A program made the translations under genes and the position numbers. DNA of 64,000 bases, from NCBI GenBank assembly GCA_034926675.1, contig JAYFQW010000016.1, positions 1 through 64,000 on the forward strand, given 5' to 3'. The notes under the pieces are model-generated. The model searched no databases, was not told the DNA's origin, and worked only from the letters and a program-made list of their open reading frames with translations. Position 1 is the first letter of the stretch. Each line of letters begins with the position of its first letter. Of the stretch, positions 27,374 through 34,955 are shown piece after piece. The DNA comes from Clostridia bacterium (GTDB taxonomy: Bacteria; Bacillota; DTU025).

Positions 27374-28636
27374 TCACCAGTCCGCCGACTCCGCGCTAAG
27401 GCCCAGCGGCGCAAGCGCCCTGGGCAGGATGCCCAGGCAGGCTGCGATAGTCATCCCGTAGTTCGTAACGGGCACTCCCGCATCCTCCAGCCCGTCGAGG
27501 CGCGACACCATCTCGCGCCTGTTCAGCATGCACCCGCCGCAGTGCACGGCCAGCTTGAACCGGGCCAGATCAGCGGGAAAGTCCACCCCGCGGCGCCACT
27601 CGAACGAAAGCTCTCCGCCGGCTTTCCGTTTGAGCAGTCGTGGGATCTTCACGGCGCCTATATCGTCGTCAACCGGGTGATGTGTACACGCTTCAACAAT
27701 GAGGACATTGTCTCCCGGCTCGAGAGACTCGATGGCATGCGCGCCCCTGGCAAGCAGCCCGAGGTCGCCCTTGTGCCGGGCGAAGAGGATCGAAAACGAC
27801 GTGAGGTCAACCGAACCAGGCACGAGGGCATCGACTTCGCGAAACGCCTGGGAGTCGGTGATGACCAGTCGGGGCCGGAAGGCGGGGGCAGCAAACACCT
27901 TCTCGAGCTGGGCCACTCGCGTCGCCATCGCGACGGCATTGTGATCGAGGATGTCGCGTATGGTCTGGACCTGGGGCAGTATCAACCGTCCCCTGGGCGC
28001 CTGCACATCTTCCGGGATCACAAGCACAACCGTGTCACCTGGGGTCAGAAGATCGCCCACGATGGGCGGTCCGTCCAGCTCCTGCGTCCCCTGCGTCCGC
28101 GAAGCCACGGCCCGGATGGCTTCGATGAGTTGCCCCAACCCTTCTCGAGTCATCGCGCTGACAGGTACGCGCGGGGCGCCCGGCAAGTCATGGGCATCCG
28201 CGTGAAACTCGCGGCCATCGGACGAGACTTGAACCATATCGGTCTTGTTGACCACTATTGCATACGGGACATGTCTCTGGTCAAGTTGAGAGAAGAGCGT
28301 GCTCTCGGGTCCGCCTGCACCCTGGGTCGCATCTATCACAACCAGAGCCATGTCTGCCTTGTTGATTGCTCTCCGAGTCCGGGCCACGCGCGCGTCTGCA
28401 AGGACGCTCTCATCGTCGATTCCGGGCGTATCGATGAACACCACAGGCCCGAGCCCGTGAATCTCCATTGCCTTGTAGACGATGTCGGTTGTGGTGCCGG
28501 CGACGGGCGACACCACCGACACGTCCTGCCCGCATATGGCGTTTATCAGGCTGGACTTGCCCGAGTTCATCCTTCCTAGAACGGCGATATGGATACGATT
28601 CGACATCGGGGTCGCATCAAAGCTCGCTGGGCTCAT
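27374..28636 (-). CDS. hydF: [FeFe]-hydrogenase maturation GTPase HydF
   Basis: 420 residues from ATG 28636, placed 6 nt behind AGGAGG; a longer frame upstream overlaps hydG and lacks support. The N-terminal Era-like GTPase domain has G1 GRMNSGKSS, SPVAGTTTDIV, G3 DTPGIDDE and NKTDM. The C-terminal scaffold domain has the cluster ligands ACTHHPVDDDIG and HCGGCMLNRREM. HydF carries the 2Fe precursor of the H-cluster and hands it to the hydrogenase. It is last gene in a regulator-hydE-hydG-hydF run. No hydrogenase structural gene is in the window. Confidence 0.97.
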   Translation of the reverse strand: MSPASFDATPMSNRIHIAVLGRMNSGKSSLINAICGQDVSVVSPVAGTTTDIVYKAMEIHGLGPVVFIDTPGIDDESVLADARVARTRRAINKADMALVVIDATQGAGGPESTLFSQLDQRHVPYAIVVNKTDMVQVSSDGREFHADAHDLPGAPRVPVSAMTREGLGQLIEAIRAVASRTQGTQELDGPPIVGDLLTPGDTVVLVIPEDVQAPRGRLILPQVQTIRDILDHNAVAMATRVAQLEKVFAAPAFRPRLVITDSQAFREVDALVPGSVDLTSFSILFARHKGDLGLLARGAHAIESLEPGDNVLIVEACTHHPVDDDIGAVKIPRLLKRKAGGELSFEWRRGVDFPADLARFKLAVHCGGCMLNRREMVSRLDGLEDAGVPVTNYGMTIAACLGILPRALAPLGLSAESADW

Positions 28637-28685
28637 TTCGCGCCTCCTCAGTGTTTGAAAGCGTCCGCCTAATACAGACGGCCCG

Positions 28686-30077
28686 CTAGAAGTAGAGATC
28701 CCTCTCGCCGCTCTTGATTTGCTCAATTCTGCGCTCGCACTCCTGACGCAGCCTCGGGTCGACTTCGGCGAACGCGCACCTGATCGCCGGCTCGGCAAGC
28801 CTGACGGTATCCGGGGACGCGTAATCGCACAGGTATTCCTGGAAGGTCAGCAACGCGTTGGGTTGGCAGAATTCGTGGATGTGGCTGGTCTTGGCGAGAG
28901 ACATGAAAGCCTCGCCTGTCCTGCCAGACCTGTAGCATGCAGTGCAGAAACTGGGGACATAACCCGAGGGGAGGAGGTCGCGGATGATCTGGTCAAGATC
29001 GCGGTGGTCGCTCACCTCGAACTGCGGAGTGTCGTAGGCCTCATTCCTGCTGTACTCCCCAACTCCAGTGCACGAACCCGCGCTTATCTGCGATATCCCT
29101 AGGGCTATCACCTCCTGGCGGAACTCGGCAGCCTCCCGCGTTGACAGGATCATCCCTGTGTACGGCACCGCCAGGCGCAAACAGGCGACTATCCGCTTGA
29201 AGTCGTCATCTGACACCAGGTGCGGAAATTCATCGAGCGACATTCCGGCGGCGGGCCGCAGTCGCGGGAACGAGATGGTGTGCGGTCCGACTCCATGGGC
29301 GCCATCCAGGTGGTGCGCATGCCGAAGGAGCGCGACAGTTTCGAAACGCCAGTCGTACAGACCGAATAGCACCCCGATTCCGACGTCATCGATGCCGCCG
29401 GCAAGCGCCCTGTCCATGGCAGTGGTGTGCCAGTCGTAGTCCGCCTTGGGCCCATTGTGCACGCGGCGATAGGTCTCGCGATGGTAGGTCTCCTGGAAGA
29501 GCACGTAGGTTCCGATGCCAGCGTCCTTAAGCCTGCGGTAATCGTCCACGGTGGTGGCCGCGATGTTCACGTTGATCCGACGTATGCTGCCGTTGTCGCA
29601 GTGGGTATCGTATATCGTCTGCATCACCTGGGTGATGTAGTCGATGGGGCAGTTTGCCGGGTCCTCGCCGGCCTCCAGCGCGATACGCTTGTGGCCCATC
29701 CTTTCGATGGCCCGGACCTCCTCGCGCACCTCGTCCATGGTGAGCTTACGCCGGGGATAGTTGTTGTCCCTCTTGTAGGCGCAGTAGTTGCAGTTGTTCA
29801 CGCAGTAGTCGCTCACATACAGCGGGGCGAAGAAGACCAACCGCTTTCCATATATGGTCTCCTTGATCTTCCGCGCGGCCGCATAAACCTCACTCAGCAG
29901 CTCGGGGTCGTCAACCCACAGCAGGGCCGCCAACTCCTCGAGGTCGAGCCCGCGCAGTTCGAGCGATTTGGCGAGAACACCTCTGACGGCAGCCGAGCTG
30001 TAGCGCTTGCCCTGTTCGAGGGCCCTGCCGATCTCCTCGTCGTCTATGAAAGTGCACTCAACTCTGTCTCGCGACAT
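28686..30077 (-). CDS. hydG: [FeFe]-hydrogenase maturase HydG, radical SAM tyrosine lyase
   Basis: 463 residues from ATG 30077 (MSRDRVE), overlapping hydE by 20 bp. The radical SAM cluster motif CVNNCNYC lies near residue 85 (CX3CX2C), and the auxiliary cluster motif CTACYRSG followed 22 residues later by a third Cys lies near the C-terminus, as in all HydG. It cleaves tyrosine to CO and cyanide for the H-cluster. Also visible: LEAGEDPANCPIDYI and VLFQETYHRETYR. Length is normal for the family. Confidence 0.97.
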   Translation of the reverse strand: MSRDRVECTFIDDEEIGRALEQGKRYSSAAVRGVLAKSLELRGLDLEELAALLWVDDPELLSEVYAAARKIKETIYGKRLVFFAPLYVSDYCVNNCNYCAYKRDNNYPRRKLTMDEVREEVRAIERMGHKRIALEAGEDPANCPIDYITQVMQTIYDTHCDNGSIRRINVNIAATTVDDYRRLKDAGIGTYVLFQETYHRETYRRVHNGPKADYDWHTTAMDRALAGGIDDVGIGVLFGLYDWRFETVALLRHAHHLDGAHGVGPHTISFPRLRPAAGMSLDEFPHLVSDDDFKRIVACLRLAVPYTGMILSTREAAEFRQEVIALGISQISAGSCTGVGEYSRNEAYDTPQFEVSDHRDLDQIIRDLLPSGYVPSFCTACYRSGRTGEAFMSLAKTSHIHEFCQPNALLTFQEYLCDYASPDTVRLAEPAIRCAFAEVDPRLRQECERRIEQIKSGERDLYF

Positions 30078-31413
30078 CTGAGCATTCCCCTTTCCGTATG
30101 TCCTCTTTCCGTATGCCCTGTCCCCATCGAGCCTTGGGGCTGTCTCCCCGCCCGGGACAGATCGACATGCCCAGCCGGTTGATCTCACGCCTGGCCGCAT
30201 CTACTGCCTCGGCGATTTCATCTCCATCGGCCCCGGGCTTGCCGGGGTAAATCTCGTAAAGGCTTCTGTACTGCCATGGAGTCACATCCAGCATGAGAAC
30301 ATTCGCCCCGGCGAGGAGAGCGAGGAAACGAGCATCGCCGAAGCAATCTGTGTCTTCACGCCCGGGGCCGTGAGGCGGCGCGCTGCAGGCGCCCTGGCCG
30401 TAGCTGCCAGATAACTCGCCCATCGTCGCTAGATACGCGGCAGCAAGGCCCCTCCAGGCGTTGTCCTGTCTGCCGACTACGCCAAGAGCGGTAGTGGCTG
30501 GCATGTGCGCCATCGGAACCAGCAGACGCGCGACTGCAACGGTGTTAAGTGTGGCGCGAACATCGGGCGTCCGGGCTGGCCACCGCGCGTGGCCCCGTTC
30601 GTGCGCCGTGCCGCCGCCAGCCGCGCTCGAGTCGCCGCCCGTTGCGCCAGCGCGCAGCGGGGTATCGGGATGCGGGATGAACGGCCCGATGCTCACCATT
30701 TCGTAGTCCTCTTCCCTGCACAGGAGGAGGTCGCGGGCCACCGACGCCCGGTCTTGGCCAGGCAGGCCCAGGATTATCCCGGAGCCAACTTGATAGCCCA
30801 TATCCCTCAGGGCTTTCAACCTCCCAAGACGCGCCGCAAGTGTGGTCGTGGGTTTGAGCCTCGCGAACAGCCCGGGGTCGCCCGTCTCGAACTTGAGCAG
30901 AAACCTGTCCGCCCCCGCCTCTCTCCATAGCCGATAGTGCCGGTCAGGCGCCTCACCCACGCTCAGGGTCACGGCTGCCCCAGTTGACGCCTTGATTCCG
31001 CTTACCGCTCTCGCGAGGCCGTCCGGCGGGTAGCCAGGGTCCTCACCCGACTGCAGGACGAAGGCGCCGAACTTGTGAACTCGGCATGCAGCCAGGGCGG
31101 CGCGGATGATCTCATCCGGGTCCATCCGGTATCGAGCGACCCTGCCGTTGCTGCGACGGAGCCCGCAGTAGAGGCAATCCTGCCGGCAGTAGTTGGAGAA
31201 CTCGATTATGGCCCTGAGGTGCACACATGAGCCGACGGCCGCCACCCGCGCCCGGTGGGCGTCTGCCCACAGAGCCGTCTCACGAGCCGGACCAGGCGGG
31301 TCAAGAGCCGCTGCGATATGTGCAGCCGTAAGGCTGCCCTGTTCGTCGGCGCCAAGTCCGCCGAACAAGGCGCGGTCGCCCGTGGCAACACAGCTACTCG
31401 CCATCTTTGCCAT
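30058..31413 (-). CDS. hydE: [FeFe]-hydrogenase maturase HydE, radical SAM
   Basis: 451 residues, about 100 longer than typical HydE. The radical SAM motif CRQDCLYCGLRR lies near residue 75; LQSGEDPGYP, LKFETGDPGLF and GSGIILGLPGQ are HydE landmarks. Extra length comes from a Gly/Ala/Arg-rich insert after IPHPDTPLRAG (about residues 265-290), another near SYGQGACSAPPHGPG, and a C-terminal tail with repeated charged residues. HydE supplies the dithiomethylamine-side chemistry of the H-cluster. It overlaps both the upstream regulator gene and hydG. Confidence 0.95.
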   Translation of the reverse strand: MAKMASSCVATGDRALFGGLGADEQGSLTAAHIAAALDPPGPARETALWADAHRARVAAVGSCVHLRAIIEFSNYCRQDCLYCGLRRSNGRVARYRMDPDEIIRAALAACRVHKFGAFVLQSGEDPGYPPDGLARAVSGIKASTGAAVTLSVGEAPDRHYRLWREAGADRFLLKFETGDPGLFARLKPTTTLAARLGRLKALRDMGYQVGSGIILGLPGQDRASVARDLLLCREEDYEMVSIGPFIPHPDTPLRAGATGGDSSAAGGGTAHERGHARWPARTPDVRATLNTVAVARLLVPMAHMPATTALGVVGRQDNAWRGLAAAYLATMGELSGSYGQGACSAPPHGPGREDTDCFGDARFLALLAGANVLMLDVTPWQYRSLYEIYPGKPGADGDEIAEAVDAARREINRLGMSICPGRGDSPKARWGQGIRKEDIRKGECSDVARQS

Positions 31414-31702
31414 CCAAATTGACCAGGGTGACGCGGGACTTGACGCCTCCGATCGACCCCAATTTGCCTGTCATGGCGCCGATTGTGTCCGTGTCGCCGT
31501 CCAGGATGAGCGCGATCACCGAAACGCCCCGGTCCTTGTATGGAACCCCCATGCGACCGACGATGATGTCCGCATAGTCGCTCAGAATGCGGTTTACAGC
31601 AGGCGCAGCGTTCAGCCTGTCCTGCACCACAATCGCCGCCACGCCCACGCGCTTGTTGACTCCCGGACTGCCTGCCTTCGCCTTCTCGCCTGACGATGCC
31701 AT
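31394..31702 (-). CDS. TM1266-type iron-only hydrogenase system regulator
   Basis: 102 residues, ACT-like fold. Sequence KRVGVAAIVVQDRLNAAPAV, IIVGRMGVPYKDRGVSVIAL and DTDTIGAMTGKLGSIGGVKS matches the small protein family encoded next to hydEFG in anaerobes and described as a putative iron-only hydrogenase system regulator. ATG start behind GGAGGGGACAG. First gene of the maturation operon, overlapping hydE by 20 bp, downstream of a structured leader. Confidence 0.92.
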   Translation of the reverse strand: MASSGEKAKAGSPGVNKRVGVAAIVVQDRLNAAPAVNRILSDYADIIVGRMGVPYKDRGVSVIALILDGDTDTIGAMTGKLGSIGGVKSRVTLVNLDGKDGE

Positions 31703-31781
31703 TTTCTCTGTCCCCTCCTTCTATTAGCTCCCCACGCTCGCCGGTATCGCGAACCCGATCATGACGCGGTTTTACCCAATC

Positions 31782-31806
31782 AAAAAACCCGTCGTGCGGA
31801 CGGGTT
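31782..31806 (-). terminator. Intrinsic terminator in the hyd leader
   Basis: On the minus strand AACCCGTC, loop CGCAC, GACGGGTT followed by a run of T residues: an 8-bp perfect stem with a U-tract. It lies between the leader structure and the TM1266-type gene with no coding gene immediately upstream, so it more probably controls entry into the hyd operon than ends another operon. Confidence 0.85.
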
Positions 31807-31943
31807 GATACTCCTGAGGCGAGAAAGCCCTCAGGAAAGCGTCAACCCTAGGTTCAGGCCCAAACCCTACCCGCAGGTATCCTCAGTATTCACCTGATAG
31901 GCGCCGCAGTCGCAACGCAGTAGTCCCGTTGGCGGCTGCGCAC
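31782..31943 (-). ncRNA. Structured leader or small RNA upstream of the hyd operon
   Basis: Read leftwards, a plausible -10 TACAAT (31949-31954) precedes about 160 nt that fold well: CAGGT/ACCTG (31892-31896 with 31874-31878), then GGGTTGA (31842-31848) pairing with TCAACCC (31802-31808), enclosing CCTGAGG/CCTCAGG. The left arm of the last stem shares five bases with the 5' arm of an intrinsic terminator at 31786-31806, so the two structures exclude each other. This is attenuator or riboswitch architecture, 80 bp before the first hyd-operon gene. I cannot assign it to a known riboswitch class; a free-standing small RNA is the alternative. Confidence 0.6.
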
Positions 31944-32068
31944 AATGTCATTGTAGCACAGCCCGCTTGTGAAGGAAAGCACAATCCGCTCGGGCGATGG
32001 TGCCACTTTTCTGGAGTATTGGTGTCAGAATATCACACTGGCTGACGATATGGTGATAAAGGGGCGGG

Positions 32069-32809
32069 TCAAGAGAGGAAAGGGTCTGTCGAATCGCCGA
32101 GACGCATTCGCGCGGCGCAGACAAGAACCTGCGCTCTGTTCTGAAGATGGAGTTGGTCAAGAATCTGTCTCATGTGGTGCTTTACGGTCCGCTCGCTGAT
32201 GAAGAGGGCGCTGCCTACTTCCTTGTATGACATTCCGGACGCGACAAGCCTGAGGACCTGCATCTGGCGCGGCATCAGTATCGATTCGGTTTCTATGCGG
32301 CGGTCGTCGTCCGCCCGGCGCTCGGCCCCCGCGCGATCGCCGTGAGGCGCCGGGTCACGAGAGCGCTGGCTATCTCGGGCCTCAAGTAGAGTGCCAAGAC
32401 GCGTGAACTCCTCCAGGATTCTCGCCGTAAGGCCTGGGGAAAAGGCTACTTCGCTCTTTTCCAGGGCCGACAGCATCTCCATTAGCTCATCGGCGTCAAC
32501 GTCCTTCAAAACATAGCCGGAGGCCCCGCTCTTTACTGCCTCGAACACGCTGCTGTCGGAGTCGATCGCCGTAAGGATCACGATACTCATTTCCGGAAGC
32601 TCCGCCTTGATCAGACGCGTGGCAGCTAGCCCATCGCATCGCGGCATGGATATGTCCATCAGTATCACGTCCGGACGCATCTCGCGCGCCATCGCAAGCG
32701 CCTCCAGCCCGTCCTTGGCCGTCCCCGTTGCCTCGACCCCGCGCCCCGCCATCAGGTCGGCTAGGCCGCAGGCGAACAGCGGATGGTCGTCAACGATCAG
32801 GATCCTCAT
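32069..32809 (-). CDS. NarL/LuxR-type response regulator
   Basis: 246 residues. Receiver domain residues 1-120 with LIVDDHPLFACGL, the phospho-acceptor Asp in DVILMDISMP, and VILTAIDSDSS; C-terminal LuxR helix-turn-helix PRQMQVLRLVASGMSYKEVG, SERTVKHHMRQIL. A charged Arg/Asp-rich linker of about 35 residues separates the domains. Its cognate kinase directly upstream is a pseudogene, so this regulator is now an orphan unless another kinase serves it. Target unknown; the hyd operon lies next downstream on the same strand. Confidence 0.93.
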   Translation of the reverse strand: MRILIVDDHPLFACGLADLMAGRGVEATGTAKDGLEALAMAREMRPDVILMDISMPRCDGLAATRLIKAELPEMSIVILTAIDSDSSVFEAVKSGASGYVLKDVDADELMEMLSALEKSEVAFSPGLTARILEEFTRLGTLLEARDSQRSRDPAPHGDRAGAERRADDDRRIETESILMPRQMQVLRLVASGMSYKEVGSALFISERTVKHHMRQILDQLHLQNRAQVLVCAARMRLGDSTDPFLS

Positions 32810-33541
32810 CGGTCTGGTCCCCTTCGTCGAATCTTGACTTGAGTGGAATGCATACCCTAACCTCCGTGCCCTCGCCGGGCGCGGATCGCAGCGTCAAGTC
32901 GCCGCCTAGCCGGTCAGCCGGCCAGCCGGTAAGGGCCTGGGCGGCAGGGTTGATGGCCACGATCCGGTCCTCGAAATTGGTCACGATTATGCCGTCGTCC
33001 ATGTCCCCGACCACGGTGGACCAGGCAACCCAATTGTCACCCTTATGACTCTGACAGTCGCGATCGCAAGCAGTGTGTATGAGTAGGCTGTCCAGATCCA
33101 GAACCAAGGGCCGTATGCCTTGGCGATGAGTGCAACCGGTCCGCTTGTGTCGAGCCTGATGTTGTAGCGCATCAGCTCGTGATGTCCGCTGATCCATACC
33201 ATCACCTGGGTGATTGCAGGCATGATCAGAAGGAGCAAGATATTGCGCCGAGTCAGCCGCTCCCCCTTACCTGACAGACCGAGCGCCGTAGCGAACCACG
33301 CCACAGGCACAGGGGTTATCCCGGCATACTCGATTCTCGACCAAAGGAGTTTGGCTTCTAGCTCCGCACTGCAGAGCTCCATGGCGTTGCAGAGCGACCA
33401 CTGAGCCGTAGCCAGCATGAGGCAGCACAGAGCCGTTGCCCCGGGCCTGCCCCGATGCCTCCAGGCGACTACAGCCATCACAAGAGCTGTGATGCCGCTC
33501 ACTATGTACGGAATCGAAAAAGGCGTGTATTCGAAGTGCAT
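32790..33541 (-). pseudogene. Broken sensor histidine kinase (7TM-PAS-HATPase remnants)
   Basis: From ATG 33541 an intact N-terminal seven-helix sensor is read (IVSGITALVMAVVAWRHRG; ALCCLMLATAQWSLCNAMEL; WSRIEYAGITPVPVAWFAT). The frame then ends at IGLPGPPWSGTWTTA. A second frame carries part of a PAS domain (DDGIIVTNFEDRIVAINPAA, LTGWPADRLGG) fused directly to the extreme C-terminus of an HATPase domain (DLTLRSAPGEGTEVRVCIPL). Both the phosphorylated-His domain and most of the ATP lid are missing. A frameshift plus an internal deletion of several hundred bases explain this. The tail overlaps the response regulator start, confirming they were a pair. Confidence 0.85.
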
Positions 33542-33887
33542 TGTGCTCAACCTCGTGACAGGTTACTCTGCACTTCTTTCTTCGATGATGTGTTCGCGGA
33601 TAACCCTGCAAATCCCGCGGGTTTCCTTGGCTACGCTACCACCTTGCTCATAAACGTGATCGTCGTGATGCCCAGGCGCAGGACGTAGCCCTTGTTCTAC
33701 CGGTAGTTAGCCTGTGCCTCTCTAGCATACAGGGCATCAGTGCACAAGATATCGCAGTATCGGTGGTTCCTAAGCTCATTTTCCGCAGCAGAAGAGGCTG
33801 AGTTTTCGTGCTGTAGTCAGATACTGTAGTCAGATTCTCTGAGAAGGTGCTGGCAGCGCTCATGTCGAACATAGCCCCGATGCAGAC

Positions 33888-34166: not shown

Positions 34167-34267
34167 AGATATCCTTCTGGACATGTATCGGAGTACTGTC
34201 GCCCGTATCTCGGGATGCTAGCATCAGGCAGAAGAATGGAGACGTTCGCAACCCGGAGGTGAGCCGT

Positions 34268-34573
34268 ATGCCGGACTTGCTTCAGGCAATCATAGACAGG
34301 ATAGTCGAAACTGCCGAGCCAGACCGCATAGTGCTATTCGGATCCAGAGGCCAGGGCAAGGGCGCCGCGGATAGCGACTACGATGTGTTGGTTCTCAAGC
34401 ACGGCGTGACTCATCGCAGACGCCTCGCGCAGGCGATCTACCTCGAACTGGCCGACATTCCGGCCCCAGTTGACGTGATTGTGGAAGACCCCGACAGAAT
34501 CGAGAAGTACCGAAATACTCCCGGTTTCATCTACAGTGAAGCCCTCAAGGGACGCGTGGTCTATGAGTGGTGA
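34268..34573 (+). CDS. MNT-domain nucleotidyltransferase, antitoxin of a HEPN/MNT pair
   Basis: About 101 residues from ATG 34268, behind GGAGGTGAGCCGT. The catalytic signature IVLFGSRGQGKGAADSDYDV (GS-x9-DxD) is intact, followed by VDVIVEDPDRIEKY. MNT antitoxins neutralise HEPN toxins, in the MntA case by adenylylating them. Its stop overlaps the HEPN start (ATGAGTGGTGA), so the two are translationally coupled. One of the few plus-strand genes in this half of the window, consistent with an acquired module. Confidence 0.9.
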   Translation: MPDLLQAIIDRIVETAEPDRIVLFGSRGQGKGAADSDYDVLVLKHGVTHRRRLAQAIYLELADIPAPVDVIVEDPDRIEKYRNTPGFIYSEALKGRVVYEW

Positions 34574-34955
34574 GGCATGGCGAGCACGGATCGGAAGAGC
34601 AGAAAGCAACCTCGCCCGCGCCAGGCTTGGTCGCCAGTCGGAGGACATCCCGTACGAGGATATCTGCTTCGATGCGCAGCAGGCTGCGGAGAAGGCCCTG
34701 AAGGGCCTCTTGGTGCACTCAGGTCTGGATGTGCCAAGAACCCATTCCATCGGCTACCTTCTATCACTTATCAAGGAGACTGGCGGCATGCCCGTGCCGC
34801 CGCAGGTGGAGCAGGCCGCGCAGTTATCGGACTACGCCGTAACCACCCGGTATCCCGGGGACTGGGAACCCGTGGGCGAAGACGAGTACAAACAGGCTCT
34901 GGCGCACGCTGAAGAGGTGTGGAAGTGGGTGATCACCGTCACCGGGTACAAGTAG
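34563..34955 (+). CDS. HEPN-domain protein, toxin of a HEPN/MNT pair
   Basis: About 130 residues from ATG 34563 overlapping the MNT gene. Typical HEPN text: ARARLGRQSEDIPYEDICFD, AQQAAEKALKGLLVHSGLDV, PRTHSIGYLLSLI, then YAVTTRYPGDWEPV. RTH and the RYPG segment are family landmarks; the classic R-x4-6-H RNase motif is not clearly present, so RNase activity is uncertain. With the MNT gene it forms a type VII-like toxin-antitoxin module. Confidence 0.88.
   Translation: MSGEAWRARIGRAESNLARARLGRQSEDIPYEDICFDAQQAAEKALKGLLVHSGLDVPRTHSIGYLLSLIKETGGMPVPPQVEQAAQLSDYAVTTRYPGDWEPVGEDEYKQALAHAEEVWKWVITVTGYK

Follow-up and report, generated by a model that had tools for sequence, protein, structure and literature searches.

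The gene for a TM1266-like protein, followed by hydE, hydG and hydF, lies behind a structured leader in a Clostridia bacterium, which raises the question of whether this leader is a regulatory switch and, if so, what it senses. [FeFe] hydrogenases are among the most active H2-producing enzymes and carry an iron-sulphur-cyanide cofactor. To our knowledge, bacterial control of the production of this cofactor is largely unknown. The analyzed stretch of DNA (the window) comprises 64,000 nt of assembly GCA_034926675.1 (contig JAYFQW010000016.1, positions 1 to 64,000).

All four genes are encoded on the minus strand. The TM1266-like protein, a putative regulator of 102 aa (31394 to 31702), matches PF21699 (1.8e-29) and TIGR03959 over its cut-off, and a Shine-Dalgarno sequence, AAGGAGGGG, is directly readable at 31712 to 31720. 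It is followed by a HydE-like radical SAM maturase (30058 to 31413), HydG (28686 to 30200; TIGR03955, 1.8e-182) and HydF (27374 to 28798; TIGR03918, 4.6e-152). Since the HydE-like protein matches TIGR03956 in three pieces and slightly under the cut-off (241.8 versus 254.6 bits), its sequence suggests a divergent HydE with insertions. Upstream, a LuxR-type response regulator (32069 to 32809) adjoins a minus-strand region (32790 to 33550) in which an ORF for a HisKA_7TM-type kinase N terminus (PF16927) is followed by a short ORF in another frame, so that the kinase gene is possibly frameshifted. At 34259 to 34955 on the plus strand, an MNT-type nucleotidyltransferase ORF precedes a HEPN-like ORF, a pair that resembles a toxin-antitoxin system by sequence alone. 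At another locus (L002), TM1266 has a similar nucleotidyltransferase upstream of it.

The leader is read on the same strand as the genes. An extended -10 element, TGCTACAAT (31950 to 31958, hexamer 31955 to 31950), places the predicted transcription start near 31943. It is followed by the structured leader, a contested strand, a terminator and the operon. The contested strand, UCAACCC (31802 to 31808), is the 3' strand of an antiterminator whose 5' strand is GGGUUGA (31842 to 31848). An upper hairpin is predicted between the two arms (31811 to 31839). Five bases of the contested strand, AACCC (31806 to 31802), double as the 5' arm of an intrinsic terminator, AACCCGUC-CGCAC-GACGGGUU (stem 31806 to 31786, U-tract to 31782), which a consensus terminator scan also picked (8 pairs, 5 GC). 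The first-pass annotation had proposed a conditional terminator in which TCAACCC chooses between two mutually exclusive partners. Both points are borne out: the strand can pair with GGGUUGA (31848 to 31842) or with the terminator 3' arm, as direct reading, the predicted fold and controls over 71 to 75 leaders indicate. It had also named a separate hyd promoter downstream of the terminator as a finding that would undo this reading, and a promoter scan from the terminator to the ATG finds none. Leader-peptide attenuation was rejected, as the ATG right behind the -10 element precedes the inferred start and its frame is open in some relatives only.

By folding energy alone, the leader does not stand out on the coding strand (z = -1.17), and the case that the structure is more than chance therefore rests on comparison. 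Leaders from five related Bacillota metagenome-assembled genomes (L031 to L035), brought in via DNA and the TM1266 protein, retain the promoter, a core of the form CCUGCGGGUAGGG-N6-CCUGARCCU(W)AGGG, the contested stem and the terminator. The promoter motif TGTGCTACAAT recurs in L031 and L032, and similar TACAAT boxes are found in L033 to L035. In the contested stem, GGGUUGA/UCAACCC of the window is replaced by the compensatory pair GGGCUAAUG/CAUUAGCCC in L034 and L035. We regard this conservation as decisive for a leader that is more than chance, and the covariation that the first-pass annotation had asked of homologues is present, both in this stem and in the receptor hairpin described below.

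The region between the antiterminator arms is variable, being a plain hairpin in the window and a domain of about 100 nt in L033 to L035. This domain (CCGACGCUUAC..GGGG..CCCUaAAGCCAGGGAGGUGC; L033 2730 to 2870, L034 125 to 245, L035 2801 to 2905) has no Rfam match above threshold and could be a second sensor. Behind the terminator, GGGUAAAACCGCG resembles a T-box; this reading was dismissed, as the sequence received no Rfam call and lies outside the conserved part.

What is conserved is a 32-nt hairpin (31877 to 31846) immediately upstream of the contested stem. It consists of two CCUG(A)...RAGGG half-sites that pair via a covarying helix of 3 to 4 bp and, on either side of it, a UGA/RAG (tandem G.A) module. 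In the window, the 5' half-site, CCUGCGGGUAGGG, spans 31865 to 31877 and the 3' half-site, CCUGAACCUAGGG, spans 31846 to 31858, so that the GGG of the latter is shared with the antiterminator 5' strand. The consensus reads Y-C-U-G-A-N3..4-R-A-G-G-R, a loop, and a repeat of the same half-site. In order, the pairs are C-G, C-G, U.G, G.A, A.R, three to four Watson-Crick pairs, R.A, A.G, G.U, G-C and R-Y, closed by a short loop. This order of pairs predicts a receptor helix of pseudo-two-fold symmetry in which two UGA/RAG modules mirror each other; their G.A pairs are probably sheared. Invariant bases are restricted to these modules, and the loop, mostly of 4 nt, ranges from 2 to 12 nt. A GNRA loop was discarded as a defining feature, being present in only 13 of the 59 four-base loops. 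Two hairpins 12 to 21 nt apart were detected at 19 of 91 loci. Directly upstream in the window, UAUCAGGUGAAUACUGAGGAUA (31878 to 31899) may be a degenerate module hairpin, a tentative reading from sequence comparison; its counterpart in L031 and L032, AUCUGA-AUACU-GAGGAU, is a single UGA/RAG module closing a loop.

A PF21699 search of 299 genomes of the phylum gave 150 genomes with a match, 148 of them over the cut-off, and 80 upstream regions were fetched. In these and the earlier leaders, CCTGA-N4-RAGGG is enriched upstream of TM1266 on the sense strand with sharp spacing, against 0 to 1 antisense matches, and the half-sites are paired, mostly 2 to 10 nt apart. An unbiased pairing test was carried out on 21 pairs picked by their half-sites alone, scoring four variable positions. 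It yielded 63 Watson-Crick pairs out of 84, compared to 25.8 ± 4.2 with shuffled partners (maximum of 44 in 5000 permutations) and 19 to 27 in slid controls. The terminal positions covary as well, GGA occurring with UCU and GGG with CCU. In alignment A2, 94.3% of cells are paired, with 48 double changes versus 16.3. Alignment A3 (110 elements, 91 loci) contains 234 double-change cells versus 85 after shuffling and 35 to 64 in slid controls. Because A3 was fitted to the model, A2 and the 21-pair test are the cleaner evidence. Single-sequence folding of relatives yields the same hairpin. The alternative that each half-site forms its own mini-hairpin was ruled out, since R14 covaries with Y1 of the next half-site and the 4-bp helix spans the half-sites. 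The window sequence, which is absent from the training alignment of covariance model R2, is matched by that model at 31846 to 31877 on the minus strand with a moderate score (13-nt half-sites; 19.5 bits, E = 0.04 in 64 kb), the sole match in the window. A model search of the whole genome of this bacterium returned no match at the sensitivity of that search.

Consistent with the first-pass annotation, which recognized no RNA class here, no Rfam 15 family reached its gathering score in the window, and the leader gave only sub-threshold matches. The 6S RNA that had been raised as a refuting identity was matched in neither. No match was obtained for relatives L031 to L041, and the 20 element loci yielded nothing beyond a piece of a group II intron that lies outside the element. 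In E-value mode, 20 leaders gave three isolated sub-threshold matches, of which only anti-hemB, a terminator-like model, occurred twice. Anti-hemB and Trp_leader were not retained as identities, their matches being sub-threshold or terminator-like.

As in riboswitches, there is a 5' leader with an expression platform and a conserved secondary structure with covariation. Terminator-type riboswitches and attenuators likewise have a 5' leader with mutually exclusive antiterminator and terminator and a short receptor overlapping the expression platform, but the receptor here, a symmetric hairpin carrying two UGA/RAG modules, has no counterpart in Rfam 15. ANTAR (EutV-type) targets resemble the element in that two small tandem hairpins often stand ahead of a terminator, in operons that include a regulator gene; their two hairpins carry hexaloops in which A1 and G4 are fixed. 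In contrast, our element conserves stem modules rather than a hexaloop, most of its loops having 4 nt, and is predicted to act by termination rather than antitermination. Guanidine-II (mini-ykkC) RNAs are similarly tiny, often tandem and symmetrically arranged. They conserve ACGR tetraloops, whereas the loops of the element vary, its tandem G.A modules are conserved, and Rfam gives no such call. K-turns and other tandem G.A internal loops share the G.A pairs within an RNA helix, but the element has no 3-nt bulge in alignment A3 and carries two mirrored copies 3 to 4 base pairs apart. Finally, the Moco/Wco riboswitch is a cofactor-related leader RNA of which tandem copies (Wco) have been reported before ferredoxin hydrogenase genes (PMC9481103); its sequence and fold differ, and it has no Rfam match in the leaders searched. 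Hydrogenase, hydE and hydG are unmentioned in three large motif surveys later than Weinberg 2017 (224 motifs). By these comparisons, the element is an unrecorded class of putative cis-regulatory RNA for H-cluster assembly. The leader switch would be a mechanism of a known kind, with a new receptor and regulon and probably a new effector.

The element precedes hydrogenase-assembly genes in many Firmicutes. Across 299 genomes, the strict window pattern reached, apart from family members and look-alikes, only a single TM1266 leader elsewhere (G044), and therefore a profile route was taken. Searching 398 genomes with covariance model R1 yielded 81 matches at E ≤ 0.01, 74 of which were assigned by hand from locus readings and gene coordinates. 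Hydrogenase genes account for 64 of these 74 (39 before TM1266, 18 before hydG, 6 before hydE and 1 before hydF) and transporters for 5, namely 4 ECF S-components (PF12822; L222, L224, L228 and L230) and 1 NitT/NMT1-type ABC operon (PF09084). The remainder consists of one match before a 185-aa ORF and four in coding sequence, attributed to chance. Three of the seven matches outside the assignment adjoin TM1266 and HydG. NitT/NMT1-type ABC loci with the element are L210 and L257, and L242 via a TM1266 gene. Assignment of the leader to the hydrogenase-maturation operon thus holds for TM1266-hydEGF but is too narrow for the class, which includes separate hydE, hydG and hydF operons and transporters. 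The ECF and NitT/NMT1-type transporters behind the element are candidate importers of a hydrogenase-related precursor. At L161 (G158:C16:90867-90900, minus strand), one or more elements and a terminator lie before the 185-aa ORF (MDFKEALLERTREARKQ...), for which no Pfam or NCBIfam family was matched. R1 and R2 matches that fell within coding sequence or lacked a hyd gene were discarded as probable chance (L226, L231, L235, L238, L246, L247, L251, L253 to L255, L258, L260 to L262, L264, L271, L272, L275 and L276).

A terminator lies within 170 nt downstream of the element at 75 of 93 loci. The 5' arms of these terminators form duplexes with the 3' half-site at a mean of -8.4 kcal/mol, compared to -4.3 ± 0.3 kcal/mol for unrelated terminators of the same loci, whose arms are shorter on average (9.3 versus 11.4 nt), and -7.8 ± 0.2 kcal/mol when arms are shuffled among leaders. 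Because shuffling among leaders keeps most of the effect, the leader-specific excess is modest and the complementarity is mostly class-wide. CCU occurs in 59% of the leader terminator arms versus 18% in unrelated terminators. At loci without a terminator, the 3' half-site overlaps the Shine-Dalgarno sequence, either before hydG (L220, L243, L265) or before an ECF gene (L222). The 3' half-site thus has competing uses: pairing with the 5' half-site, pairing with the terminator 5' arm, or overlap with the Shine-Dalgarno sequence.

These arrangements bear on the direction of control. Since the hairpin and the antiterminator compete for the same GGG, stabilizing the hairpin should promote termination, and both the terminator and the Shine-Dalgarno arrangements predict an OFF state when it is held. 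A stabilized hairpin would turn the genes off, opposite to the earlier proposal, in which the upper stem was the sensor and its stabilization allowed transcription; that stem is not conserved, and the conserved hairpin upstream of it predicts the reverse sign. The moving strand would be the 3' half-site, made up of RAGGG and the bases that follow it. With the hairpin open, GGGUUGA of the window would pair with UCAACCC, polymerase would read through, and TM1266, HydE, HydG and HydF would be made. An effector that holds the hairpin would occupy the GGG and free AACCC, so that the terminator forms; in leaders without a terminator, the held hairpin would hide the strand that overlaps the Shine-Dalgarno sequence.

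The candidate effector is encoded by the first gene of the operon. The element was found at hyd genes in none of 25 genomes with HydG but without TM1266, versus 49 of 148 genomes with TM1266 (E ≤ 0.01; hypergeometric probability about 1e-4, calculated by hand and uncorrected for descent), suggesting that TM1266 may be an RNA-binding effector. With R2 and looser filters, the counts are 0 of 25 versus 7 of 15 genomes with TM1266, the latter chosen as R1 negative. This co-occurrence is confounded by shared descent and by the fact that most elements sit before TM1266 itself. Arg18 and Arg50 of the protein are invariant and Lys80 is nearly so, and the protein shows weak similarity to NikR, the family of nickel-responsive regulators. 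Its annotation is limited to "putative regulator," the only solved relative (2NZC) is named "hypothetical protein," and a literature search found no description of its function. We know of no TM1266 relative that binds RNA. From the hairpin and its covariation, the gene association, the terminator and Shine-Dalgarno overlap and the TM1266 co-occurrence, all read from sequence, we infer sign, effector and signal: the chances seem to us evenly balanced that the leader acts in cis as an OFF switch based on the receptor hairpin, with a TM1266-family protein as its most likely effector. This protein would act as an RNA-binding feedback repressor reporting H-cluster or iron status.

Because transporters share the element, TM1266 is ranked first as effector with a small molecule close behind. 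In a small-molecule riboswitch, the UGA/RAG modules would form one or two ligand pockets, binding would stabilize the hairpin and turn the genes off, and TM1266 would merely be regulated; the ligand would be a metabolite or ion tied to H-cluster synthesis or to the cargo of the transporters. The ECF S-component and NitT/NMT1-type ABC genes behind the element, the tandem copies, which look like tandem aptamers, and the restriction of invariant bases to the modules all fit such a switch. It is nevertheless a possibility that we lean against, given the absence of the element at the hyd genes of the 25 genomes lacking TM1266, the lack of a match to any known class, and a two-fold symmetry and 32-nt size that fit a dimeric protein at least equally well.

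Tandem hairpins ahead of a terminator also recall ANTAR targets, and AAGGG resembles generic GGA-type sites, as would be expected if another trans-acting RNA-binding protein, ANTAR-like or CsrA-like, bound the paired hairpins and controlled termination. We consider this improbable, as variable loops and bases conserved in the stem are unlike ANTAR hexaloops and the narrow hyd/TM1266 association speaks against a global regulator. The unexceptional folding energy of the window leader would, in turn, suit a constitutive attenuator or an ordinary terminator without a sensor, in which the hairpin merely tunes readthrough. Invariant non-Watson-Crick modules, compensatory helix changes over 91 loci and the use of the element at terminators and Shine-Dalgarno sites alike make this highly unlikely.

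The shared RNA element defines a candidate regulon of TM1266, hydE, hydF, hydG, an ECF transporter and an ABC transporter. It predicts a regulatory sign, suggests a molecular job for TM1266 and singles out transporters as possible importers of a precursor. The receptor architecture, in which two tandem G.A modules sit in a palindromic RNA helix, is itself unusual. In its full form, our proposal is tentative, and we place it a little short of an even chance: TM1266 would be an RNA-binding repressor of a two-fold-symmetric RNA "operator," and by causing termination or masking the Shine-Dalgarno sequence it would switch off the genes for H-cluster assembly together with linked transporters. If true, [FeFe]-hydrogenase biogenesis would have an RNA-level regulon of its own across Firmicutes.
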